A DNA stretch of 64,000 nucleotides from Pseudanabaena sp. ABRG5-3. GTDB taxonomy: Bacteria; Cyanobacteriota; Cyanobacteriia; Pseudanabaenales; Pseudanabaenaceae. The notes below the pieces were generated by a model. That model had not been told where the DNA came from. It saw nothing but the letters and a program-made list of their open reading frames with translations, and searched no databases. The DNA lies in contig NZ_AP017560.1 of assembly GCF_003967015.1 (NCBI RefSeq), positions 3,842,048 through 3,906,047 of the forward strand, given 5' to 3'. Below are positions 6,394 through 45,181 of the stretch, piece by piece (the stretch's first letter is position 1; each line of letters begins with the position of its first letter). The position numbers and the translations under genes were made by a program.

Positions 6394-7413
6394 CTATCTT
6401 TTATTTTTGGCGATCGCTTTACTTTGGCTCTTACCTGCGAGTTTGATCGCAAAGCTTTCAATGCTGTTGTATAGACTGCGCGGCAGTATCCAGATGAAAT
6501 AAGCCGCAAAAATCGTTAGTAGCGATCGCTGTGGCTCGTAAATCAAAATTTTCCAATTGCTCTTTAAAGCCCGATTAATTAACTGCACAGCAGATTTCCC
6601 ATCCTTATTGCGAATTGCTCGACGGCAAAGATAGCGCAATTGGTAAGCACGGGCTAAGGATTCCCACTGTGCCATGAACTCAGGAGCATAGGCACGAGTT
6701 TTCGCGATCACCTTTTCCCAAGAATCCAATTGCTTCATCATGTTTGCCGACAACCCACCTGAATTAACCCGATAGAGGGTGAGGGCATCGGCAATACCTT
6801 CGAGCTGCCATTTTGTAGTTAGGACAATACGAAGCCAACATTCAATATCTTCGGACTGGCGGAAGCGATCGTCAAAGTAGAATTTCTCTGCTGTACCGTA
6901 ATAATCTGCCGTAAACTCGATATCTTGAAATACGGCTTTGCGGATCACGGGAACTGAACCATTGCTAATCGGATTGCGACAAAGAACTAGTTCGGGCGTA
7001 ATATCTTTGAGTTTGGGAACTTGGTAATTGCCAAGCGGTTGACTGTCATCATCAATAAATTCGGAGCAGCAGAAACTCACACCTACCGATGGATTAGAAT
7101 CTAGGTGTTGAACATGTTTTTCGAGCTTTTGCGATCGCCAAACATCATCGGAATCCAAAAAAGCCAAATATTCACCTTGAGCATGGCGAATACCTGTATT
7201 TCTTGCACCTGCTAAACCTCGATTTTTTTGATGAATTATGCGAATGCGCGGATCGGCAATTCCTTGACAGATGGCAATACTTCCATCCTTTGATTCGTCA
7301 TCAATGATGATTAGTTCAAAGTCGGTAAAGGTTTGTGCTAAAACTGAGTCAATAGTTTCAGCAATATACTTCTCAACGTTATAGACAGGAACAATCACAG
7401 AAACTTTAGGCAT
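6394..7413 (-). CDS. Family 2 glycosyltransferase
   Basis: A GT-A fold glycosyltransferase: VSVIVPVYNVEKYI at the N-terminus, the nucleotide-binding ELIIIDDESKDGS, and the metal-binding DXD-type FLDSDDVW near residue 90. It transfers an activated sugar to the growing repeat unit on the cytoplasmic face of the membrane. The start is the ATG at 7413 because AGGAG lies 6 bases upstream; the TTG at 7419 is less likely. It is the last gene of the polysaccharide locus and a paralogue of its neighbour at 7498-8433. The acceptor sugar cannot be predicted. Confidence 0.85.
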   Translation of the reverse strand: MPKVSVIVPVYNVEKYIAETIDSVLAQTFTDFELIIIDDESKDGSIAICQGIADPRIRIIHQKNRGLAGARNTGIRHAQGEYLAFLDSDDVWRSQKLEKHVQHLDSNPSVGVSFCCSEFIDDDSQPLGNYQVPKLKDITPELVLCRNPISNGSVPVIRKAVFQDIEFTADYYGTAEKFYFDDRFRQSEDIECWLRIVLTTKWQLEGIADALTLYRVNSGGLSANMMKQLDSWEKVIAKTRAYAPEFMAQWESLARAYQLRYLCRRAIRNKDGKSAVQLINRALKSNWKILIYEPQRSLLTIFAAYFIWILPRSLYNSIESFAIKLAGKSQSKAIAKNKR

Positions 7414-7443
7414 ATTCAACTCCTGAGAAATAAATAGGGTAAG

Positions 7444-7497: not shown

Positions 7498-8433
7498 TCA
7501 GCGCAACACGATGTATCTGCTATAGGTTGCCAATAGAGTTAGCAAAGTACGGCGTGGTTCGCGTAAAAAAATCCGCCAATCGGAACAGATGGCACGATTG
7601 ATAAAATCTCTACCAACATGGGGTGGTAGCTTTAAACGAAAGGCGCGTCTTGCTAAGTAACGCAGATGGATCGCTCTAGCAAGGCTATAGTGTCGTTTGA
7701 CTAAATCGGGAGCATATTCTCTCGCTCTGTCGATTAGCAAATCCCAGCCAGATTCCATTCGATATAGTGATGCGGATAGCCCCGATGGACTGGCACGGTA
7801 AGCAATCAATACGCGATCGATTCCTTCAATTTGCCAAGGAGAATTCTCTGGTCGCTGATAACAACTCACCCGAAATAGCCATTCAAGATCCTCAGAATAG
7901 CTCATGTCTTCGGCAAATCCACCTACCTGTGCGAAGACTTCCGCACGCACCACAAGATTAGACATTGTCGTAGTAGGATTTTCGTAGAGAAAATCTTCGG
8001 GTTTGAGGTTAATGAGGCGGGAAGTAGAAACTTGCCCCGTCGATGCCCCTGCAAAGCTGATAAATTCTACCCGACTGAAGCTAACTGCGAGGTTGGGATT
8101 GTTGGCAAAATGTTGGATATGGGCGGCTAATTTGTCATTGAGCCAGATATCATCCGCATCAAGAAAAGCGATCAATTTCCCTTTAGCCATGTTCACACCT
8201 CGGTTACGGGTAGCCGATACCCCTTGATTGACCTGTGATAGAACTTGGATACGGCGATCGTGCAGGGCATATTCCTTGGCAATCTCTAGGGTGTTATCGG
8301 TGGAGCCATCGTCAATAATTAAAAGTTCAAAATCCGCAAACGTCTGATTGAGAACTGATTCTATCGTTTGGGCGATGAAACTTGTCGCATTGTAGGCGGG
8401 CATGACGACGGATAGCATCAAATGATCGCTCAT
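7498..8433 (-). CDS. Family 2 glycosyltransferase
   Basis: A GT-A glycosyltransferase with LSVVMPAYNATSFI, FELLIIDDGSTDNT and the DXD-type FLDADDIWL. The start is the ATG at 8433, which overlaps the stop of the wzx-like gene (8430) in an ATGA arrangement typical of translational coupling; the longer frame to 8556 lies inside wzx and is rejected. The C-terminus (RYLARRAF.LK) resembles that of the GT2 at 6394-7413, suggesting paralogues. Likely role: one sugar of the repeat unit. Confidence 0.85.
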   Translation of the reverse strand: MSDHLMLSVVMPAYNATSFIAQTIESVLNQTFADFELLIIDDGSTDNTLEIAKEYALHDRRIQVLSQVNQGVSATRNRGVNMAKGKLIAFLDADDIWLNDKLAAHIQHFANNPNLAVSFSRVEFISFAGASTGQVSTSRLINLKPEDFLYENPTTTMSNLVVRAEVFAQVGGFAEDMSYSEDLEWLFRVSCYQRPENSPWQIEGIDRVLIAYRASPSGLSASLYRMESGWDLLIDRAREYAPDLVKRHYSLARAIHLRYLARRAFRLKLPPHVGRDFINRAICSDWRIFLREPRRTLLTLLATYSRYIVLR

Positions 8434-9731
8434 GGCTGCACCTCCGATGGCTTGAGCATGACTTTTGAGATGTTGCGCGTTACCCACAGGGAATACAAAG
8501 GTAAGGCGATCGCATGGGCAATCAGGACAGCAGCAGCTACGCCGATAATATTCCAATTAACGCCGATCAATAGGGCGATCGCAAAGAAGGTCGTAAAGAA
8601 CATATTCCAGCGTAGATCCCAATCAGGTTTGTCCAAAGCCCATAAAACTCTAGATGCAGCATTGGCAAAGGGGCGCGGAATTGCCGACAGACAAATCAAG
8701 ATCAAAATGGGAATCGCAGGCAGCCATTTCTGTCCAAATATAATCGGCACATAAATTGGGGCAAAAAAGGATTGCAAAAGGACAAGTGGAAAAACAATCC
8801 AAGCGATCGTTTTGAGACTACTGAAGTAGCGTTCTTTAAACTGTGCTGGATCGGAGCGGGCGGCACATAGGTGTGGAAACAAAGCCGAATCAACAGCATT
8901 GATCGCACTCATGCTAATTCCCAATCCTGCATTAAAAGCAAAGTAATAAATCCCTAAAGCTTCTACACCGAGAAATCTGCCTGCAATTAAGTAATCAAGG
9001 TTATTTCTCAGGGTATTCATTAGCTTTACCCCTAAAACACTACGCCCAAAACGCACAATTTCCTGCCAATTGACAAGGGTAAACTGTCGCGATGGTCGCC
9101 AAGGATTATTGAAATAATGCACGATTACCCAGACTGGACCAACGATTACCTTGGGTAAGACGATCGCCCACATTCCCAAGCCACAAAAAGCGAGAATAAT
9201 GGTCAAAATATTATCAATGGAAACCTGCAATCCATTAGCTAGAGCCATCACATGCAGGCGATTTTCCCGTTGGGTTAAGGAAGCCTGTACTAGGGATATG
9301 GGAATCATCAGATAAACCAATGCCATGATACAAATTGGCAGAATAATCTGGTTATCTTTGTAGAACCAAGCAACGGGTACGGAAATCAGACATTGGGTGA
9401 TAAATAGAGCGCCACAGACGATCCAGTTGAGACAATAGGCGGTTTGACAAAGTTGTTTTAAATCGCTTTCATCGGATTGAATCAGCTTGTCCCAAATTCC
9501 ATTCTGGGTAAATACATTCACAAACTCGTTGGTGGTCAAGACTAGCGCCGCCAAACCATAGTCATATTTAGAGAGTAGTCGCGCTAGGACAATCGTAGCG
9601 GCTAATCGCGAAATCCGAATGAAGAGTTCGGACAAACCTAGCCAGCCCAGATTGCGGAGAAATCGACTGGCGAGTTTTTGTTTGATCGTATCGATTAATT
9701 TGCCAATAGCTGACACAATAAAGCCTCCCAT
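8430..9731 (-). CDS. wzx: Wzx-like polysaccharide flippase (MVF superfamily)
   Basis: A hydrophobic protein of about 433 residues with the Wzx/MATE-like pattern of 12-14 membrane helices (LGLSELFIRISRLAATIVLARLL at the N-terminus, LDYLIAGRFLGVEALGIYYFAFN in the middle). It should flip lipid-linked repeat units across the inner membrane. I prefer the ATG at 9731 (MGGFIVSAIGKLI), which overlaps the upstream GT4 gene by 37 bases; the frame itself is open to 9788. The position between glycosyltransferase genes supports the role. Confidence 0.83.
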   Translation of the reverse strand: MGGFIVSAIGKLIDTIKQKLASRFLRNLGWLGLSELFIRISRLAATIVLARLLSKYDYGLAALVLTTNEFVNVFTQNGIWDKLIQSDESDLKQLCQTAYCLNWIVCGALFITQCLISVPVAWFYKDNQIILPICIMALVYLMIPISLVQASLTQRENRLHVMALANGLQVSIDNILTIILAFCGLGMWAIVLPKVIVGPVWVIVHYFNNPWRPSRQFTLVNWQEIVRFGRSVLGVKLMNTLRNNLDYLIAGRFLGVEALGIYYFAFNAGLGISMSAINAVDSALFPHLCAARSDPAQFKERYFSSLKTIAWIVFPLVLLQSFFAPIYVPIIFGQKWLPAIPILILICLSAIPRPFANAASRVLWALDKPDWDLRWNMFFTTFFAIALLIGVNWNIIGVAAAVLIAHAIALPLYSLWVTRNISKVMLKPSEVQP

Positions 9732-10693
9732 GCGGTTAAGTGTTGATCCCAAGCATTTCTCACTGATTCCCTCCCTTTGATTCCCCAAGCACTCAGGTCT
9801 GCTGGTGACATCTCACAGATCTGGACGATCGCCTGTGCCAAAGCAGGCGGATTGTCAGGGGGAACAAGCAGCCCTATTCCCTGAGCCTGCTCAACTAGAC
9901 CATCAACGGCACTGACAACGATCGGTTTACCTGCTGCCTTAGCTTCTAAGCAGACATTGCCCCAAGGCTCCCACCGTGACGGAATAATCACCACATCGCA
10001 ATCCGCAAGAAAGGATGGCACATCATCGATCTTGCCGACAAACTGAACTTTGGGATTGCCTTCGGCTAATCGTTGCAATAAGTCTTCATCGGAACCATAG
10101 CCCGCTATTTTTAAATGGAAGTCAATTTGAGGAATTAACCGACATGATTGCAGTAAAACATCAAATCCCTTTTGAGCATCAAATCTTCCATAGGCAGCGA
10201 AAATCAAGGGCTTGGTAATTGGCTTGAGGGGAAGTCCTAAAAAGCGATCGCAGTTGAGACCTTGCTGAATGACGGTTAGTTTTGAGGGTCTGACTAATTG
10301 ATATTTGAGTATCCATGCTGCCTGAGCCTGAGAAACTACTAATATGCGATCGGCGCACCAATGACAGAGCTTTAACATCAGTCGAAATCTAGATGGCAAA
10401 GGCACTTGCAATCGTTCAAAAGCAGCCGAATAATGGTGGTCTTGGATGACCAATTTCGACTTTTGCTTCAGGAACTTAAGTACTAACAGGCGAGGTAAGA
10501 TCTTCCAAGAGCAAGCATCATGGACAAAAATAATATCTGGTTGAAAGTTACGGATACTTGCCTTAGCACGGTGCAATGGCGCGATCACCAATTCAAACTG
10601 TTCCTTTAGTCGTGAAGCCATCAAACTACTGAGACTAGTCTTAACCCCCCCCATCCGCTCATCGCTGATTAAATTGATGATTTTCGCTTTCAT
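9695..10693 (-). CDS. Family 4 glycosyltransferase (first of a tandem pair)
   Basis: A GT-B glycosyltransferase with the C-terminal donor-site motif PSRWEPWGNVCLEA (the E-x7-E signature) and GRFDAQKGFDVLL. The start is the ATG at 10693 (MKAKIINLISD), preceded by GAGG 9 bases upstream; a TTG at 10708 is the alternative. It is clearly homologous along its whole length to the next gene (10713-11705): both begin ...LLSD/LISD..(L/M)GGV and share the entire donor-site block, so they arose by tandem duplication and probably add two successive sugars. Confidence 0.86.
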   Translation of the reverse strand: MKAKIINLISDERMGGVKTSLSSLMASRLKEQFELVIAPLHRAKASIRNFQPDIIFVHDACSWKILPRLLVLKFLKQKSKLVIQDHHYSAAFERLQVPLPSRFRLMLKLCHWCADRILVVSQAQAAWILKYQLVRPSKLTVIQQGLNCDRFLGLPLKPITKPLIFAAYGRFDAQKGFDVLLQSCRLIPQIDFHLKIAGYGSDEDLLQRLAEGNPKVQFVGKIDDVPSFLADCDVVIIPSRWEPWGNVCLEAKAAGKPIVVSAVDGLVEQAQGIGLLVPPDNPPALAQAIVQICEMSPADLSAWGIKGRESVRNAWDQHLTAWEALLCQLLAN

Positions 10694-10712
10694 GGTTACG
10701 ATCCTCAAGATC

Positions 10713-11705
10713 CTATGATGTTGCTAAAACTTCCCAAAGTATGGATTCCCATGCTTCCAGATACTTACTTCCTGCCGAACTAACGGCGCGGCGACCGCTT
10801 TGTCCCCAATTAGCGAGCGTTGCATCAGAGAGTGAAGCAACTTGGATAATTGCTTTGGCTAAAGCTTCAGGATCTTCCACGGGTACGACTAGCCCACAAG
10901 CCTCGACCTGCTCGACTAGCCCATCAGTAGCAGTGACGATTACGGGTTTACCCGCAGCTTTCGCTTCTAAACAAACATTGCCCCAAGGCTCCCACCGTGA
11001 AGGAATAACCACCACATCACATTGAGATAGAAATGATGGGACATCACGAATGGTTCCTAAAAACTGGACATTTTCTAAACCCTGTGCGATCTGTTTGAGC
11101 ATCATTTCATCGGAGCCATAACCACCTAATAACAGTTGGACTTGCTCCGATGGAACTTGCTGCATGGCTCGTAATAGCAGGTCAAATCCTTTTTGTTGGC
11201 TAAATCTACCGTAAGCACCCAAAACTAAAGGTCGATCGCGGGGTTTCGGAGCAATCTCCAGAAATTTAGCGATCGGTGGGGATTGCTGAATCACGGCAAG
11301 ATTTTCTGGCTTAGCGAGATGATGTTCTCGCATCCATTGCCCCTGAGCGTGGGAGACAGCAACGACACGGTGAGCAGTGCCATAGGTCAGTTGCAGCATC
11401 AGCCGAAAGCGAAATTTAGAAGGCACATTGTAATCTTCAAAGCCCTTGGAATAATGGTGATCGTGAATGATTAACCGCGTCTGTCTGGCAATCTTCCATA
11501 GAGAGGTAAGATTTTGCCAATTACAGGGATCGTGAAAAATGGCGATGTCAGGTTTGAGTGATCGCAAAGCTGTTTGCGCTTCACTTACATTCGCAGTCAA
11601 AAATTCAAACTTCTCGCCTAGGGGTGAACTAATTAGACCCTCCATAGTCTTATTGACTCCACCGAGATTGCGATCGCTTAATAGTTTTAATACTTTAGGT
11701 CTCAT
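10713..11705 (-). CDS. Family 4 glycosyltransferase (second of a tandem pair)
   Basis: A 330-residue GT-B glycosyltransferase with GRFSQQKGFDLLL, GGYGSDEMML and the E-x7-E donor motif PSRWEPWGNVCLEAKAAGKP. GGAG lies 7 bases before the ATG at 11705. It is a tandem paralogue of 9695-10693, with 19 bases between them. A 76-base gap separates it from the polymerase gene upstream. Confidence 0.86.
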   Translation of the reverse strand: MRPKVLKLLSDRNLGGVNKTMEGLISSPLGEKFEFLTANVSEAQTALRSLKPDIAIFHDPCNWQNLTSLWKIARQTRLIIHDHHYSKGFEDYNVPSKFRFRLMLQLTYGTAHRVVAVSHAQGQWMREHHLAKPENLAVIQQSPPIAKFLEIAPKPRDRPLVLGAYGRFSQQKGFDLLLRAMQQVPSEQVQLLLGGYGSDEMMLKQIAQGLENVQFLGTIRDVPSFLSQCDVVVIPSRWEPWGNVCLEAKAAGKPVIVTATDGLVEQVEACGLVVPVEDPEALAKAIIQVASLSDATLANWGQSGRRAVSSAGSKYLEAWESILWEVLATS

Positions 11706-11781: not shown

Positions 11782-13083
11782 TCATGAATGTTCAGAAACC
11801 TCCTTTAGCGCCACGACTCTTGGCTTATCTTCTTGGAGACGATCTTTGGCATTAAAGCCAATTCCCATCATTACTAGCCCTGGCCAAAATAGATAGGCAA
11901 GAATTTCTAGATTCTCACCAAAGGTGTAGAACATTAGAACTAAAACCATACTTAATCCCACCTGTGCGGATTCGCTTTTTTGGGCTTTGACCGTCAGATC
12001 CCCAAAACTCCAAGCCATCGGTACTGCCAGCGCAAAGAAGCCAACAATTCCTTTGACATAGAGCAGTCCAAACCAACTGTGATGAGAGCCAATTGGCATA
12101 TGCTCAACAAGGTGTGGGCCCTTTTCAACCACACCATGTCCCCAGATTGGTGCTTCCTTTTCCCAACGATAGCGAGCAATTCTACCCAGAGCCGCCCGCA
12201 CTCTCGAAGAATCCTTTCTTGCTGCTGTAAATTTCTCATTGAAAGTTTCGATCGCTTCTAAAATTTCATTTAAGGTGATACTACTAATAAAGCTCACAAT
12301 CCCTAAGCCAATCAATGTTAAAGGACGGCTGAGTTTAGAGAGTAGTAATGTGATTAACCAAACCGCAGGCATAGCAATGAGAGCCAGCCTTGATGCCGAA
12401 ATCTGACACATCACAAGGCATCCTGCTATGCCTAGCCAACGTAACTTGCGATCGCTATCCCGTAGAACCATAAAGAAATAGATATTGGCAACAAATCCGA
12501 GGGCTGGAGCCCAAGGTGTAAATAAGCGCCATCTCGGTTTATGCTCCCCTGGATCAATTTCGTATAGCATCACCTCAAAAAAGTCGGGACCTGGACCTCC
12601 CACAGCGCGAAGTGGTGAGACATAAAGCTTCTGAGGTAAATGGACATAAAAGGCGAGAACAAAGGGTACGGAAATCGCAAGGGTAAAGGCACAGATGCGA
12701 GAAGCAGCACGGTACATTAGCTGCGGTCTAATGTTTAAACAACCAATCAAAGGATATAGAGCCAATAAAGCCCATCCCTTTGCCCACCCGATTGTTGATT
12801 TAATGATTTCGCCTAAGCCCAGATTGAAATCTAGATGTCCCATAACGAGGGCAACTTGCATTACTAACATGCTCACGACCCAAATCCTCACCCCCCAAGG
12901 AATTGTAATTCTTTCTTCTACGGGAGTTTCGTCATTTTGTTGCCATAATTTAACGCAAAGATGCCCAAATAAAAGCCAAGCTAATACTGCACCTAGAATA
13001 TAGAGTCCACCGATCGCATAAAAACCATAGGTCCAAATGATGGAAATCCAGATTGCTTTTTCCGCAAAGTTTTGTGGCTTCAT
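11782..13083 (-). CDS. O-antigen ligase/Wzy-type polymerase
   Basis: A polytopic membrane protein of 433 residues with about ten hydrophobic segments and a large loop in the C-terminal half (roughly residues 290-355). The segment RARALGRIARYRWEKEAPIWGHG-like followed by HHSWFGLLYVKGIVG is the pattern of the WaaL/Wzy_C family. The loop His of GSHHSW matches the conserved His of this family. The start is the ATG at 13083 (MKPQNF), overlapping the stop of the upstream gene by 4 bases (ATGA). It likely polymerises or ligates repeat units in the periplasm; the two functions cannot be told apart from sequence. Confidence 0.78.
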   Translation of the reverse strand: MKPQNFAEKAIWISIIWTYGFYAIGGLYILGAVLAWLLFGHLCVKLWQQNDETPVEERITIPWGVRIWVVSMLVMQVALVMGHLDFNLGLGEIIKSTIGWAKGWALLALYPLIGCLNIRPQLMYRAASRICAFTLAISVPFVLAFYVHLPQKLYVSPLRAVGGPGPDFFEVMLYEIDPGEHKPRWRLFTPWAPALGFVANIYFFMVLRDSDRKLRWLGIAGCLVMCQISASRLALIAMPAVWLITLLLSKLSRPLTLIGLGIVSFISSITLNEILEAIETFNEKFTAARKDSSRVRAALGRIARYRWEKEAPIWGHGVVEKGPHLVEHMPIGSHHSWFGLLYVKGIVGFFALAVPMAWSFGDLTVKAQKSESAQVGLSMVLVLMFYTFGENLEILAYLFWPGLVMMGIGFNAKDRLQEDKPRVVALKEVSEHS

Positions 13084-14534
13084 GATTCTAGGATATTGGG
13101 TTGATTTGGCTTGATTTTGCCTTTGATGTAGGTTGCGGTTTCTTTGCGCCACCACAGCAAGACTAAGCCAGTGGTAATGAAAATTGAGGCAACCCCAGCA
13201 CCTACAAACACAATCGATGGTTTGGGAGAGGTTTTCTCATCGGGTAGGGTTGGCTCTGCCAGTAACTGCGTAATGGGATAGGAGATAAAAATATCGGACT
13301 TTCCAAGGTCTAACTTAGCTAAAGTGGAAGCGAATACCGCCTCAGCAATTTGGACTTCTCGTTGCAGATTATCCAATTTGGATTGTTTTTGAACGAGAAT
13401 TTTTAACCTTGCCTCTAATTCTTCGATCTGATTACCAAGAGCTTCATTTTGAGCAACTATGCCCTGCTGGTCTGTCTGGATTGCCACTAAATCACGGAAG
13501 AGACTCTCGCGACTAGAGCCAGATTCGCTCTTGATATTGAGGTGCTGAAGGATGGAAAGATTAACCCTGCGTCCTAACAGAGAACTAGCGCGATCGAGCA
13601 TTGCTGCACGCGCCGCTTCTCTTCTCGCCGCTTCCTTGATCACTAAAGGATGGTTATCTCCCCACTTAGCCTTTAAAACCACCAATGTGGAACTAGATTC
13701 ATTGTAATCCTTTAAATTCTGCTGAAATAACTGATCGGCTTGGAGAAGGAAGGCATTGGCGGCTTCAGGGACAGTGATATCGAGGTCAGAGGATAACTGA
13801 GATAAACGGGTAGTAGATTGTTGGACTTGAGCATAGCTTTCTGCCCTTTGCTTACGAAGTTGTTCGATATTGTTTGATAGATCTTTCACCTGATCGCCAG
13901 AACTGAGTCCCGATGAGGCTTTATATTCGGAGAGCGTCTTTTGAGCTTGTTGCAGTTTTTCCCTTGCGGAGGTTAAGGTTGCTTGACTTCCCTGTTCACG
14001 TTTGGCAACTTCCTCTAAGCGCAATTGACTTAATTTTGTCTGGAGAGCCTCGTAAATAGCGTGCGATCGCAATTGGGCATCCTTGGCTGTAGGACCTGTA
14101 ACTTCAAATTCCATAATTGAAGTGTTATCCACTAATTTGACCTTGGGTTTGCCCAGTTGCTTGAGGGGAATCTTCAACTGATTCGCCGCTTCTTCTAACA
14201 CCGACTCATTGGTAATCAGAAATTGATAGTTTGCACGAGGATCCATCGAGGCACTACCAAAGGGAGAGCTACTAGACGAACTGGCTTGTCCGATTTCAGG
14301 TAAATTGACACTCACACCCGAACCAGCTCCCGGCACAATCACTGCCCAACTGCTGGTATAGACTGGCTTTGCTGTTTTGAGATAGGCTAATGTGATTCCC
14401 CATAAAGCCACATTAGCAGCTAAGCCGATCGCCGCATATCTGGCATATCGCCAGAACTTATTTTTCTGCTCGACAGGATGTGCATCAGAGCTACTGGCTA
14501 TAGATAGGGATTTGATGGGGTCATTGATGGTCAT
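13080..14534 (-). CDS. Chain-length determinant (Wzz/GumC-like polysaccharide co-polymerase)
   Basis: A 484-residue protein with one membrane helix near residues 31-52 and another near 445-465, separated by a long periplasmic coiled coil (about 165-405, many heptads). This is the layout of the Wzz domain without a C-terminal tyrosine kinase. It starts with the typical cytoplasmic tail and YTSSWAVIVPG after the first helix. Such proteins set polymer length and link polymerase and exporter. A Ser-rich stretch (QASSSSSSPFGS) near residue 82-93 is unusual. Four-base spacing to the wza-like gene and overlap with the polymerase gene indicate one operon. Confidence 0.85.
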   Translation of the reverse strand: MTINDPIKSLSIASSSDAHPVEQKNKFWRYARYAAIGLAANVALWGITLAYLKTAKPVYTSSWAVIVPGAGSGVSVNLPEIGQASSSSSSPFGSASMDPRANYQFLITNESVLEEAANQLKIPLKQLGKPKVKLVDNTSIMEFEVTGPTAKDAQLRSHAIYEALQTKLSQLRLEEVAKREQGSQATLTSAREKLQQAQKTLSEYKASSGLSSGDQVKDLSNNIEQLRKQRAESYAQVQQSTTRLSQLSSDLDITVPEAANAFLLQADQLFQQNLKDYNESSSTLVVLKAKWGDNHPLVIKEAARREAARAAMLDRASSLLGRRVNLSILQHLNIKSESGSSRESLFRDLVAIQTDQQGIVAQNEALGNQIEELEARLKILVQKQSKLDNLQREVQIAEAVFASTLAKLDLGKSDIFISYPITQLLAEPTLPDEKTSPKPSIVFVGAGVASIFITTGLVLLWWRKETATYIKGKIKPNQPNILES

Positions 14535-14537
14535 ACC

Positions 14538-15665
14538 TCATTTTCCCCCCCTAAATATCAAATTAAAAGGAGTCAAGAGAATATCGGTAATTGTCCGCAC
14601 GACATCCCTGACATCGGTCACAGTAGAGTCATAGCAACCAACACCATCTTCGGGCATGAGAAAAGGATTATTGGTGTCATCGGTAGAATTACGGATAATT
14701 TCTTCAACATCGCGATCAAAAACCTTCGTCGCTCCCGTCTGGCGATCGGTGCGAACTAGTACGGCTCTGCGGGGTGCATTGGTGGGTGATGTACCACCAA
14801 CGCAGTTAGCAGCAATCACCGCTTGAGATAATCTTGCCCCATAGGGAAATGCGGAACCGTCGGATTTAATCGAAGAACTGGCATTACTAGTCGCAGGAGT
14901 CGTTAAATTCGATAGAAATACGCGAATTCCGGGAGGCGTGATTTGCGAAGGTCGGACTAAACTGTTCTGCTGCTGAGGTAACTCAGGCACAATCACGCGA
15001 TCGCCAGCAATCAGAGCTACATCTTCGACTTCCTCGCCTGTAAATATGCCAGATAGATCGACAATTTGCTCTAGCCCATCTCTAATCACCCGAATCTCTT
15101 TGACATTTGCCATTGGGGTAATGCCACCTGCACCACGCAAAGCCGCCGTCAGATAACGCTCTGGAGGATTATCCCCCGATGATTGATTTTGCTGTAAGCT
15201 ACGGTCTTCCGCAGAGCGATTATTGATCGATACTCGACCTGCCTGAAAAGTTGCCCCAGAAACACTTACTTGAATGGCTGCCCATTGCAAAATACTGACA
15301 TTGACTTGCAAAAATGTCGGCTGAAAGAACTTGCGATCGATTAATGTGTGATAGATTTTTTGCTTGACTTCGGATATTTCCAACCCTTTGACAGCCAAAG
15401 GATCAAGATAGGGAATTTGAATATTGCCATCGATGTTAACTTCATAAACGCCACTAAATAATTCGCCTTCAGGGATAAGTAGCCTAATGCGATCACCGGG
15501 GGATAGGGGCAATGCTAGGGCTGGTTTTACCCCAAGTAAGTCGATAAAATGTATGGAGAGTGCAGCAATCATGAAAATTGACCAAAACCTAAGGTGACTC
15601 CAATCGTCTTTGACCATCGAAGCGCGTTTAGATTTTGTGTCAAACTGATTGCCCATCTTATCCAT
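14538..15665 (-). CDS. Wza-like polysaccharide export protein
   Basis: A 375-residue exported protein: an N-terminal signal/membrane segment (about residues 26-50, FWSIFMIAALSIHF), then a Poly_export domain beginning LSPGDRIRLLIPEGELFSG and a SLBB-like region (VAVSGATF-type strand, RGAGGITPMANVKEI). No lipobox cysteine is visible, unlike E. coli Wza. It should form the periplasmic/outer-membrane conduit. Two further in-frame ATGs (15656 and 15617) could be the true start; I keep the first. It lies 2 bases downstream of the priming transferase gene. Confidence 0.85.
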   Translation of the reverse strand: MDKMGNQFDTKSKRASMVKDDWSHLRFWSIFMIAALSIHFIDLLGVKPALALPLSPGDRIRLLIPEGELFSGVYEVNIDGNIQIPYLDPLAVKGLEISEVKQKIYHTLIDRKFFQPTFLQVNVSILQWAAIQVSVSGATFQAGRVSINNRSAEDRSLQQNQSSGDNPPERYLTAALRGAGGITPMANVKEIRVIRDGLEQIVDLSGIFTGEEVEDVALIAGDRVIVPELPQQQNSLVRPSQITPPGIRVFLSNLTTPATSNASSSIKSDGSAFPYGARLSQAVIAANCVGGTSPTNAPRRAVLVRTDRQTGATKVFDRDVEEIIRNSTDDTNNPFLMPEDGVGCYDSTVTDVRDVVRTITDILLTPFNLIFRGGK

Positions 15666-15667
15666 CT

Positions 15668-17818
15668 TTAGACAGCACTATTTCTACGATTAAATAAAAC
15701 AGCGATCGTTTTGAAGATTAGCAGGAGGTCATATTGCAAGCTCCACTTTTGTTTATATGCTAAGTCAAACTCCATTACTTCTTCAAAGCTTTTGACGCTA
15801 GATCGACCATTCACTTGCCATACACCAGTCATCCCCGGTTTGACATCGAGACGACTCCATTCTGTCATTTTGGCATCGGTATATTCATTCTCTAGCTCAT
15901 AGAGTCCAACTTCATTAAAGGTCGGTGGTCTTGTCCCCACAAGGCTCATATCACCTACCAAGACATTAAAAAACTGGGGAAGCTCATCTAAGCTAGTTTT
16001 ACGCAGAATTTTGCCTACTCCTGTGACTCGCGGATCGTTACTGTTCTTAAAGAACTTACCGCTATTTGCATCTGTACCGTTGGCAGAATCAGCGATCTGA
16101 TTGGTCACTTTTTGTTTGAGCATTTCGGCATTTTTGACCATAGAGCGAAATTTCCAGATACCAAAAGGCTTACTCATCAGTCCTGCACGTTTTTGCTTAA
16201 ATAGTACTGAGCCATGACTTTCTAATTTAATGGCGATCGCAAGGGGGATGAATAAAATTGCGGTGATGGTGAGCCCAACTAAGGAGCCAAAAATATCGAT
16301 GATGCGTTTGGGAAAACTGCGTACAGAGGGATGTACGGGTACTCTCGGATCCAACTCGATCGCAGGATAAAGAAAATACATCACATACGCAATCACACAT
16401 AGGATGGGAATACCGATGAGGAAGTGATAGAGGCGATGAAAAATTGTAGCAAGGCGATGAAATTGTCTTTTCTCCGAGCGTTGACTTTTTCTACTTGGTA
16501 AACGGTTAGTGCGTGTAGATGGTTCAATATAAAAAATGTTATCGAGATTGGTCATTTTTAAAATCGAAATCACCTGTGGATTCACACTCCAAAGTACTAG
16601 TTCCGTTGTTTCAGTTTTGCCTGATTGAATATCAGTTTGGCGCAGGATTTTCAAACAGGAGATCAATGCGCCAATACCTGAGCTATCAATAAACTCGGTA
16701 TTGGACATATCAATAATAATTTTGCGAAAACTCTCATCTTCTTGGCATAATTCTCGAAAATTTTCCTTGAGTCTTCGCGCTTCGGGATTAAAGATGTTTT
16801 TTGGGGTACTGATTAAAGCGGTATCTTGAAAACTCGTAATTTGGACATTAGATAAACCCGATTTTAATGATGGCTGATCATTACCCGTAGGAATATAGAC
16901 TGACTCAGGATAACGGGTTGCAATTTCTTCTGAACGGACGATCAGGAGGTCTAAAGCTCTCAATGAGCGCAGCAGTCTCGCCGAAAGACTCAAATCACGA
17001 ATGCGGGTTTTGGATTCGACAAAGACGACTTGACTTCTACATAGATATTTGGCAGCAACTAAAAAGGGGACAGCAACCCCAGCACCAGTCGAAATTGTCA
17101 ATGCGGGACGTTTTTTAGAAAATACGCGAATGGCTAATAGTAGGTTACGGACTAAGTTCGGCAAATTTCGATTAGTGGGACTATGCGCCCAATAGGCTTT
17201 TTCATCCTTAAGTTCTGATTGGGTCGTACCAGTTTTAAAGGTAATCCAATCGCGTTGCTCGAATTGCTGCCAATATTGACTTAAGCCCTGCATGGCTTTG
17301 AAATGTCCCCCCGATGAGCAGACCAGCATGATTTTGCGGTAGTCTTGGCTAGGATAGCGATCGCTAAGATATTCACATAGGGGACTGTCTTCTCCAAAAC
17401 TAGGAGAACTATGGGGTATCGTAATTAACTTTAGAAATTTAACTAAGTCAGCAGGCGATCGGGCGATGAGTATGCCTTGGTTTTCGAGATCATCTGCCAT
17501 CTCTATTTGATGATCGTCAACATGCTCATGGAATTGGGCTGTACGTGGTACTAAGATATAGGGCTTATCAAATTCTTCCAGTAATAGTGCTGTCCCTTCC
17601 CCACAGTGGGCTATCACGGCACTTGCTTGTTCAACGTTTTTCTTGAATTGGTTTTCAGGCATTACTTTGCTAACCTTTACATCGTCAGGTAAGCGAGTTG
17701 CTGCCCCATATTGGATAGTCACTTCTTCAGTAATGATCCCCTCTTTCATTAATAGACTGATCCAATCCATTAAGGCATTGAATGGATACTGCTCAGTTCC
17801 GACTGTAACTAGTATCAT
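15668..17818 (-). CDS. Four-part fusion: Alg13-like + Alg14-like + STAS + polyprenyl-P sugar-phosphate transferase
   Basis: A 716-residue protein with domains in this order: a GT28 C-terminal/Alg13-like domain (1-135, [28 protein letters not shown]); an Alg14-like domain (160-312, [21 protein letters not shown]); a STAS domain (325-435, [10 protein letters not shown] with the usual phospho-Ser position 379-380); a membrane helix (463-483); and a WcaJ/RfbP-type bacterial sugar transferase (503-716, [57 protein letters not shown]). The last domain primes polymer synthesis by moving a hexose-1-phosphate to undecaprenyl phosphate. The Alg13/14 pair would add the second sugar. It is the first gene of the operon; the STAS domain suggests regulation. 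All key motifs look intact. Confidence 0.88.
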
Positions 17819-42799: not shown

Positions 42800-45181
42800 A
42801 TGACGCTATTTAAACCTGCGATCGCGTTGATGAACCATCTCAAATACCCCCAAAAATTCTTGCTGATCAGCCTGCTATTTGTTTTGCCACTAGCGTTCGT
42901 GATGAACTTGCTACTGTCAGAAATCAATAGCCGCATTGACTTTACCCAAAAAGAAATCTATGGCAACACTTACCTCCGTCCTCTAAATCAACTATGGCGA
43001 CATATCCCCCGTAGACAGTTAATCTTACAGCGCCAGTTCTATAAGGATACCCAGAATTTAGGTGGATTATCTCAGTCACAATCAGCAGAATTGCTAGATT
43101 TACAAAATAAGATCGAGCAGGAATTTAATAACCTTGCAGAGATTGATCGTTATTTAGCTAGAGTCGTCAAAACTGGAGAAAAACTACAAGAAATCAAGTT
43201 TTCATGGCAAAGCTTGCTAGATAGTCAGGAGTTTTTAGAATTTCGTAGTCATGATCGATTGATTGATCAAATTGATCGGTTTCATATCCATATCGTTGAT
43301 TTCTCTAATTTAATTCTTGATCCCGATTTAGATACTTACTATCTAATGGATGCGATCGCCAATAAGCTGCCAGAAATGCAGAAAATTTTGTATAAGATCA
43401 TACAAATAGAGGCGGAGGTCGTATTTAAAAAAGCAATTACGAATGAACAAAAGCAAATCCTAATTTCTTTGATCAGTTTACTGCGTAATTACAACCATGA
43501 GATCGAGGCAAATCTGGAACGAGCTTTTAACAATAATCCTCGTAATAATCTGCGTAATTCTTTAAGTATTCCTCTCCGTAACTTTGTAGTTAGTATTAGT
43601 GAGATTAATGAATATACATATCAATTAGTTAATTTAGTTAATCAGGAAAATAGAGATGCTTTTAAGGGCAGCTTTTATCAACAGGAGATGGAAAGTACTC
43701 TAGAGGATAGTTTTACGCTCTGGCAGCAACTGGTTGATCACTTAGATGAGCTATTAGCTTACCGCCTTCAAGGATTTGAGCAACGCAAACAATTTATCTT
43801 AATGTTTGTAGCGGTTATTTTGATCGCGATCATCTATTTATTTATTGGCTTTTATCTATCGGTAATGCGAACTGTTAATCAACTAGATATTGCCTCCAAA
43901 CAAATGACTAGTAATGGTGCGATATCGATACATCTTGATAGTAAAGATGAATTATCGATGGTTGTGCGCTCGTTTAATAATGTGGCGATCGCTTTACGTG
44001 AATCTGAGGAGAAATATCGCAGCATTTTTGAAAATTCGGTTGATGGCATCTTTCAAACTACGGTTGATGGCAAATATATCAGTGTGAATCCTGCCCTAGC
44101 CAAAATTTATGGCTACACGTCAGTTGAGCAGATGCTGGAGGAAATCGTTGATATTCAGTCACAGCTTTATGTGGATCGCGATCGCCGTCAACAGTTTCAG
44201 ACCTTAATGAATGCAAATGACACCATTACCAACTTTGAATCACAAATATATAAACGCGATCGCAGCAAGATCTGGATTAGTGAAAATGTACGCGCAATCC
44301 GTGATGGCAATGGCAAAATAATTTATTACGAAGGCACAGTGGCAGATATTACACAAAGAAAGCTTGCCGAAATAGCATTAGAAAAAGCTAATCAACAGAT
44401 TTTATCGCTGAATAACCGCCTCAAAGAAGAGAATTTACGCATGAGTAGTGAGCTAGAAGTGACGCGAAAACTTCAGCAGATGATTTTGCCAAAAGAACAA
44501 GAACTATCCTTGATTTTAGGATTAGATATTGCAGGATTTATGGAACCTGCGGCTGAAGTGGGTGGTGATTACTATGATGTGCTGCAACAACATGGGCGGA
44601 TTAAAATCGGCATTGGTGACGTTACGGGACATGGCTTAGAAAGTGGAATGCTAATGATTATGGTGCAGACCGCCGTGCGTACTCTATTACAAAGTGAAGA
44701 AAATGATCCTGTCCGTTTTTTAGACACACTCAATCGCACTATTTATGGAAATGTGCAGCGTATGTCATCGGATAAAAATTTAACGCTCGCTCTAATTGAT
44801 TACGAACATGGCAAATTGACCTTAAGTGGTCAACATGAAGAACTTATTGTGGTACGCAAAAATGGAACTCTAGAACGATTTGATACAATCGATCTTGGGT
44901 TCCCCATTGGTCTAGAGGAAGAGATTTCTGATTTCCTCGCTCAAAAGCAAATTCATTTAGATTTAGGTGATGTCATGGTGCTATATACCGATGGGATTAC
45001 GGAAGCAGAAAATGAATCCCGTCAACTCTATGGTGTAGATCGCTTATGTGAAGTAGTCCGTCAACATGTAGATGAATCGGCAAGTAGCATTCGGCAGGCA
45101 GTTATCGATGATTTGAGATCGCATATCGGCACACAAAAAATCTATGACGACATCACATTGCTAGTTCTCAAACAAAAATAA
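42800..45181 (+). CDS. Membrane PAS-SpoIIE (PP2C-type) serine phosphatase
   Basis: 793 residues: membrane helix near 20-40, a periplasmic helical sensor (about 45-330), second helix (331-352), HAMP (353-405), PAS (405-520, EEKYRSIFENSVDGIFQTTVDGKYISVNPAL), a coiled coil (about 530-565), and a SpoIIE/PP2C phosphatase (575-793) with AEVGGDYYDV, GIGDVTGHGLESG and VLYTDGITEAEN, which supply the metal-binding aspartates. Such proteins dephosphorylate STAS-type anti-sigma antagonists. A STAS domain occurs in the fusion at 15668-17818, but a link between the two is only a guess. Confidence 0.88.
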   Translation: MTLFKPAIALMNHLKYPQKFLLISLLFVLPLAFVMNLLLSEINSRIDFTQKEIYGNTYLRPLNQLWRHIPRRQLILQRQFYKDTQNLGGLSQSQSAELLDLQNKIEQEFNNLAEIDRYLARVVKTGEKLQEIKFSWQSLLDSQEFLEFRSHDRLIDQIDRFHIHIVDFSNLILDPDLDTYYLMDAIANKLPEMQKILYKIIQIEAEVVFKKAITNEQKQILISLISLLRNYNHEIEANLERAFNNNPRNNLRNSLSIPLRNFVVSISEINEYTYQLVNLVNQENRDAFKGSFYQQEMESTLEDSFTLWQQLVDHLDELLAYRLQGFEQRKQFILMFVAVILIAIIYLFIGFYLSVMRTVNQLDIASKQMTSNGAISIHLDSKDELSMVVRSFNNVAIALRESEEKYRSIFENSVDGIFQTTVDGKYISVNPALAKIYGYTSVEQMLEEIVDIQSQLYVDRDRRQQFQTLMNANDTITNFESQIYKRDRSKIWISENVRAIRDGNGKIIYYEGTVADITQRKLAEIALEKANQQILSLNNRLKEENLRMSSELEVTRKLQQMILPKEQELSLILGLDIAGFMEPAAEVGGDYYDVLQQHGRIKIGIGDVTGHGLESGMLMIMVQTAVRTLLQSEENDPVRFLDTLNRTIYGNVQRMSSDKNLTLALIDYEHGKLTLSGQHEELIVVRKNGTLERFDTIDLGFPIGLEEEISDFLAQKQIHLDLGDVMVLYTDGITEAENESRQLYGVDRLCEVVRQHVDESASSIRQAVIDDLRSHIGTQKIYDDITLLVLKQK

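Follow-up and report, generated by a model that had tools for sequence, protein, structure and literature searches.

One gene of Pseudanabaena sp. ABRG5-3 encodes a 716-residue protein, P0001, in which an Alg13-like, an Alg14-like, a STAS and a monotopic PGT domain are fused. The gene lies on the minus strand at positions 15668–17818 of the analysed stretch of DNA (64,000 nucleotides; referred to as the window). P0001 is probably the initiating enzyme of Wzx/Wzy exopolysaccharide synthesis. It would unite a priming PGT, an Alg13/14-type transfer of the second sugar and a STAS domain switched at Ser379, and it would have originated by fusion of the three neighbouring genes alg14, alg13 and STAS-PGT.

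We infer the activities, the sugar identities, the phosphorylation with its effect and the channelling as follows. The C-terminal monotopic PGT would move hexose-1-phosphate (probably glucose) from a UDP-sugar to undecaprenyl phosphate. The N-terminal Alg13/Alg14 pair resembles PssD/PssE (EpsE/EpsF) with the two halves swapped and would be a split GT-B enzyme related to MurG. It would then add the second sugar to the lipid-linked product, which may be channelled between the two steps; this sugar is probably glucuronic acid, galactose or glucose in a beta-1,4 linkage; the donor sugar of this step is not readable from the sequence. The STAS domain between the GT pair and the PGT would be regulatory, an RsbW-type kinase most likely phosphorylating Ser379 and a PP2C phosphatase removing the phosphate. 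Together they would gate the drain on undecaprenyl phosphate at its first step.

ORF calling gave a frame with an ATG start and no internal stop. A plus-strand reading of 15668–17818 was dropped, as it is full of stops. An earlier reading made from the letters of the window (the sequence-only reading) had proposed the four-part order in one 716-residue protein, and the Pfam search confirmed it. From the N-terminus, the search placed an Alg13/PssE-like domain at residues 1–130 (17429–17818; PF04101, Glyco_tran_28_C, E-value 7e-9), an Alg14/PssD-like domain at about residues 160–310 (16889–17341; PF08660, Alg14, 6e-13 over residues 220–309), a STAS domain at residues 330–435 (16514–16831; PF01740, 1e-12) and the monotopic PGT catalytic domain at residues 504–709 (15692–16309; PF02397, Bac_transf, 3e-62). 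All four exceed their gathering scores, with 209.9 bits vs 27 for Bac_transf and 47.8 vs 22.6 for STAS.

The motifs are also in place. Both half-domains of the Alg13/Alg14 (EpsF/EpsE-like) GT-B pair carry their H-x-G and GGH motifs: HCGEG at residues 71–75 (17594–17608) in the Alg13-like part and SSGGH at residues 168–172 (17303–17317) in the Alg14-like part. The Asp-Glu dyad (SLDE, residues 609–612) marks P0001, together with the Bac_transf score, as a monotopic PGT. This dyad is a functional motif of PGTs, as GGH and H-x-G are of the GT-B pair. The intact serine motif that had been read in the STAS domain, DSSG, is present at residues 378–381. Its Ser379 (16682–16684) is the candidate phosphoserine, which we take to correspond to the phosphorylated serine of SpoIIAA/RsbV.

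Narrower family models matched at lower scores than their cut-offs. The NCBIfam models PssE (residues 2–120), PssD (residues 164–308) and WelK all stayed below the equivalog cut-off (PssD: 83.0 vs 110 bits; PssE: 78.0 vs 120 bits), and the Alg13/14 half is therefore counted as a relative and not filed as an equivalog. The same applied to the EPS_sugtrans subfamily (TIGR03025: 262.9 vs a curated cut-off of 295.55 bits) and to TIGR00377 for the STAS domain (44.7 vs 53.45 bits). PF13727, which as an N-terminal domain with a membrane bundle marks large monotopic PGTs of the WbaP type, was absent among the six Pfam families seen in P0001 at E-values up to 1, and P0001 is not counted with that type.

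In the PDB, the PGT sequence matched WbaP and PglC, and the STAS sequence matched anti-sigma-antagonist proteins. The AlphaFold model had a mean pLDDT of 76 and a pTM of 0.49, was weak at residues 638–680 and is unreliable in its inter-domain geometry. Taken one by one, its domains matched PglC, the MurG N-domain (Z 15, Alg14-like part) and STAS proteins of the RsbV/SpoIIAA type (Z 14–16), whose fold the STAS domain shares; these matches did not separately resolve the Alg13 part.

The sequence-only reading had placed the fusion at the head of a Wzx/Wzy locus, and this proved correct. P0001 is the first gene of a same-strand polysaccharide run reaching position 6394. Only 2 nt downstream lies a Poly_export/Wza-like gene (14538–15665), followed by a PCP/Wzc-like chain-length gene (13080–14534; 484 aa, weak NCBIfam EPS-transport matches), a Wzy_C polymerase-like gene (11782–13155), two GT4 glycosyltransferases (10713–11705 and 9695–10708), a Wzx-type flippase of the MOP family (8430–9788) and two GT2 glycosyltransferases (7498–8556 and 6394–7419), all on the minus strand. 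The PCP/Wzc-like product had no Pfam match at an E-value of 0.001 and no tyrosine-kinase domain was found in it, so CapAB-like tyrosine control is seemingly not encoded by that gene.

A survey of the architecture, which the sequence-only reading had suggested, covered 38 genomes of the order, 26 of them from the genus. Besides P0001, the window's own genome encodes a second four-part protein, a paralogue with 53% identity (G000:C1:2671375-2673519; L002, L098). Orthologues of P0001 (group A; 73–100% identity over the first 452 residues) were found in 22 genomes, comprising 21 of the 26 of the genus and one of another genus (G386). Paralogues (group B; 44–48% identity) were found in 22 of the 26. 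Either A or B was present in 25 of the 26 genus genomes, and the exception (G411) is 82% complete. Two genomes of other genera, G390 and G415, also encode four-part proteins. Among the matches listed, Pseudanabaena accounted for seven of the ten named genomes with a four-part ORF. Phylum-wide (386 genomes), the whole Alg13-Alg14 query lay in one frame only in the four of this genus. A contig scan used a peptide pattern containing D[SG][SA]G; 80 of its 399 confirmed stretches were listed, and their DSSG counts were not used.

Wza-Wzc-Wzy homologues directly follow the gene in the window and in 12 of 14 orthologue contexts; of the two exceptions, L144 is without them and L151 encodes them on the opposite strand. 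In the 20 group-B contexts, no match to any gene of the window's cluster was found. At the three group-B loci that were read, a trpD-like gene adjoins.

Sequence comparison identified a hydrophobic segment between the STAS and PGT domains (about residues 466–488; 16355–16423). It was present in all 14 genus proteins examined (eight of group A and six of group B, less hydrophobic in the latter) and missing in all six other proteins compared (G390, G415 and four STAS-PGTs). In groups A and B, the stretch would more probably lie at the membrane interface or re-enter than cross the membrane, because one span would place the UDP-sugar-using domains outside.

Motif conservation was counted on 22 group-A rows (23 were printed; L055 was dropped, being from the same genome as L153). 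HCGEG and SSGGH were kept in all 22, DSSG in 21 (one NSSG), a serine at the place of Ser379 in all 22, and the PGT Asp-Glu in all 21 rows reaching it (L156 stops short). In group B, HCDE replaces HCGE, meaning that the first glycine of HCGEG is gone, and GGH is lost, both in 22 of 22. The STAS motif there reads DSAG (14), DGAG (7) or DTSG (1), so that DSSG is lost in all 22 and the first serine in eight, while the PGT Asp-Glu is kept in 22 of 22. The motifs are intact in G390 and degraded in G415. Loss of catalytic residues across homologues had been named as a result that would speak against the fusion enzyme. The orthologues keep them throughout, and the reading of P0001 stands; in the paralogue group, the loss did occur.

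All four domains of P0001 are under purifying selection. The NG86 dN/dS medians of group A (eight pairs, which share sequences and are not independent) were 0.046 for Alg13, 0.043 for Alg14, 0.071 for STAS and 0.039 for PGT, with 0.224 for the linker. Group B (nine pairs, likewise not independent) gave 0.039, 0.103, 0.050 and 0.048, with 0.065 for the linker. These low values indicate that B is a conserved protein and not a decaying gene.

The role of the STAS domain was approached through STAS-PGT proteins of other loci. We used 46 loci chosen by PGT similarity, namely the 26 best-scoring and 20 hand-picked ones with open frames of 333–377 aa, a choice that favours STAS-holding proteins. The motif was DSSG in 45 and DSCG in one; hence the first serine was present in 46 of 46. 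An RsbW-type kinase homologue lay within 0.9–1.5 kb downstream at 21 loci. Of these, 20 shared the strand of the STAS-PGT gene, 17 of them no more than 130 nt past its stop and three at 322–765 nt (distances measured to stop-to-stop frames), and the remaining one (L019) was on the other strand. No RsbW-type gene was found within the 0.9–1.5 kb searched downstream of the other 25 loci, 20 of which belong to family f7. By family, linkage was thus 0/20 in f7 and 21/26 in the other loci, though operon-type f7 loci (e.g. L117–L121) carry an RsbW-type gene. Four scanned kinases were HATPase_c_2 proteins; three adjoin the STAS-PGT gene, and that of L128 is about 2.5 kb away. The scanned neighbours also included one STAS-only protein and two SpoIIE-type phosphatases with receiver or PAS domains.

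RsbW-type kinase genes follow STAS-PGT genes in many cyanobacteria, for example at L117:9270-11558, L223:9475-9912, L241:8896-9348 and L235:9181-12089. Some kinase-linked loci add STAS-only and SpoIIE phosphatase genes, the phosphatase of L117 being on the other strand.

Near the fusion itself, the picture differed. With own-genome and linked kinases as queries, no RsbW-type gene was found in 14 orthologue contexts (11.6–19.5 kb), and the same two kinds of query gave no match in 20 group-B contexts. A larger kinase/phosphatase-like protein (L157 type) was matched about 8 kb off in L154 and, in the window, at position 42800, which is 25 kb away. The kinase tree, from which L281 and L298 dropped out, placed 21 of 24 linked kinases in a single clade (support 81); L254 and L220 were outside the main clade and L301 was among the unlinked kinases. 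The only place in the window's genome matched by the linked-kinase query was L159 (39% identity). It was dropped as an orthologue of the linked kinases: it groups with the unlinked ones (SH-aLRT 95) and occurs in 37 of the 38 genomes of the order, including some without the fused protein. Kinases of the general type exist elsewhere in the window's genome.

Partner-switch control, as proposed from the sequence, was therefore borne out more firmly for the family than for P0001. For the STAS-PGT family, the kept serine and the adjoining RsbW-type genes, joined in some loci by STAS-only and SpoIIE-phosphatase genes, are good evidence for such a switch. For P0001 itself, with 0/14 contexts and L159 outside the linked clade, phospho-control is more weakly suggested, by the kept serine and by likeness to that family.

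It is possible, though rather unlikely, that the STAS domain of an otherwise bifunctional enzyme does not switch at all and is a structural or docking module for dimerisation or for membrane or partner recruitment. The missing kinase gene beside the orthologues and the position of L159 fit such a module, and so does paralogue B, which stays under purifying selection although DSSG is lost throughout and its first serine in 8 of 22. However, a structural role predicts neither the first serine in 22/22 orthologues and 46/46 loci nor the RsbW-type genes beside 21 of the 46.

The two-step enzyme that had been proposed is well supported by inference, from the resemblance to PssE/PssD (EpsF/EpsE) and to PGTs and from the relatives encoded by neighbouring genes. 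P0001 resembles Rhizobium PssD/PssE, EpsE/EpsF, Cps14F/Cps14G and WelK, half-enzyme pairs for the second sugar on lipid-linked glucose; Cps14F/Cps14G and WelK act in second-sugar addition. It differs from PssD/PssE, EpsE/EpsF and Cps14F/Cps14G in being fused, in its Alg13-Alg14 order and in being joined to STAS and PGT. Two homologues of nucleotide-sugar dehydrogenases are encoded in the window's genome, which fits UDP-GlcA as a donor. PssD and PssE are regarded as jointly providing the second-step GlcA transferase (PMC1403797), and EpsE/EpsF transfer Glc or Gal to lipid-linked Glc in a beta-1,4 linkage (PMC8993221). The logic of gene fusion suggests which glycosyltransferase adds the second sugar, and both steps and their possible channelling would sit in a single polypeptide, where they can be assayed.

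Alternatively, only the PGT could be active and the Alg13/Alg14 half could be a pseudo-enzyme for regulation or scaffolding, which we consider improbable. Paralogue B does look like this: with the GT motifs lost and the PGT motif retained in all 22 genomes and a low dN/dS, it is apparently a GT-dead priming enzyme. As B keeps the architecture, the GT half can persist without these motifs. In group A, however, all 22 genomes hold both motifs, and P0001 is the sole PssD/PssE-like pair with intact motifs found in the window's genome, since only A and B matched there (E-values up to 1e-6). Moreover, GGH is present in 27 of 28 separate-gene relatives, by which A looks ancestral and B derived.

On a wider view, which we put forward tentatively, partner switching in cyanobacteria may act on a priming enzyme and not on a sigma factor: a kinase/phosphatase pair would set the PGT-borne STAS domain and gate undecaprenyl phosphate. 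In Pseudanabaena, the switch might sit within a polypeptide that makes a lipid-linked disaccharide, the kinase might act in trans, and the GT-dead paralogue might serve as a competing or regulatory primer. The PGT-borne STAS domain and the adjoining RsbW-type kinases would give polysaccharide switches a concrete, testable target, the first membrane step.

Known systems offer partial parallels. The STAS-glycosyltransferase all4160 of Anabaena, on our reading a PGT, has its STAS domain N-terminal to the sugar transferase, as P0001 does, and is listed among the genes on which the heterocyst envelope polysaccharide depends (PMC8256260, PMC4390870). P0001 differs from such STAS-PGTs: 45 of the 46 loci are without Alg13/Alg14 (L019 has Alg13), and the four examined are without the hydrophobic segment. 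Like the Bi-PGTs, it has a functional domain fused to a monoPGT core (PMC10942596). By its domain content, with Alg13/Alg14 and STAS in the same ORF as the PGT core, P0001 is a bifunctional monotopic PGT; STAS-PGT itself was already known. In the freely readable literature covered, STAS-glycosyltransferase appeared only as all4160, and no four-part protein, no kinase linkage and no Bi-PGT example with Alg13, Alg14 and STAS was found described.

As for regulation, Myxococcus EpsW-EpsZ is similar in that a signalling domain acts on a priming PGT after translation (PMC12802240), but EpsW is a response regulator acting in trans on a large PGT, while the STAS domain of P0001 is fused. CapM phosphorylation is another control of a PGT after translation (PMC10942596). 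SypA/SypE of Vibrio and HmpV/HmpW/HmpU of Nostoc are kinase/phosphatase-run STAS systems with polysaccharide or motility output (PMC4517449, PMC8256260). SypA and HmpV are stand-alone STAS proteins, unlike the built-in STAS of P0001, and those papers call the mechanism of SypA (PMC4517449) and the target of HmpV (PMC8256260) unknown.

Other cyanobacteria hint at the ancestry of the fusion. In 11 of 20 regions chosen by Alg13/Alg14 similarity, a 3.5-kb stretch of a single strand holds alg14, then alg13, then STAS-PGT; in the L121 region, 1.4 kb separates alg13 from STAS-PGT. Of the other nine, one has these genes with STAS and PGT encoded as two overlapping ORFs, two combine alg13 with STAS-PGT, and in six the alg14/alg13 pair has no STAS-PGT beside it. 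Many separate-gene regions belong to a cluster that shares homologous Wzx, GT2, GT4, Wza and Wzc genes with the window; no homologues of these were found in the regions of L127, L128, L129 and L134. P0001 would accordingly be a fused operon in which these neighbouring genes were joined, and the comparison suggests fusion as the direction of change. In the fusion, Alg13 precedes Alg14, opposite to the operon order. Alg13 and Alg14 are inferred to have fused again on several occasions, in Amoebozoa with inversion, and Entamoeba and Dictyostelium are reported to have reversed Alg13-14 fusions (PMC8993221).

Two trees were calculated, one of STAS-PGT (73 rows) and one of Alg14+Alg13 (46 rows). In both, a branch (SH-aLRT 99 each) separated the fused proteins of the P0001 family from the rest, and group A (99) and group B (100) were each likewise set apart. 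Both trees come from quick searches, have SH-aLRT as their sole branch support and are displayed with midpoint rooting, and the Alg14+Alg13 tree has long branches, L138 among them. That an assembly join or frameshift merely joined neighbours, as the sequence-only reading had asked one to consider, is next to impossible: four-part ORFs occur across many separate assemblies (22 A genomes, 22 B genomes, G390 and G415), and their Alg13/Alg14 order is opposite to that of the operon.

Other combinations of these domains were also seen. A protein of G109 is Alg13-STAS-PGT and, by its place in the trees, an independent fusion, because it groups elsewhere. At L124:7253-8286 (G175), STAS and PGT are two overlapping ORFs vs one in relatives, which may be a natural split, a frameshift or an assembly error. 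Two Alg13-STAS proteins (L139:6523-7836 and L140:5050-6375) have a PGT-like tail in which the Asp-Glu aligns as RLER, so their PGT may be dead.
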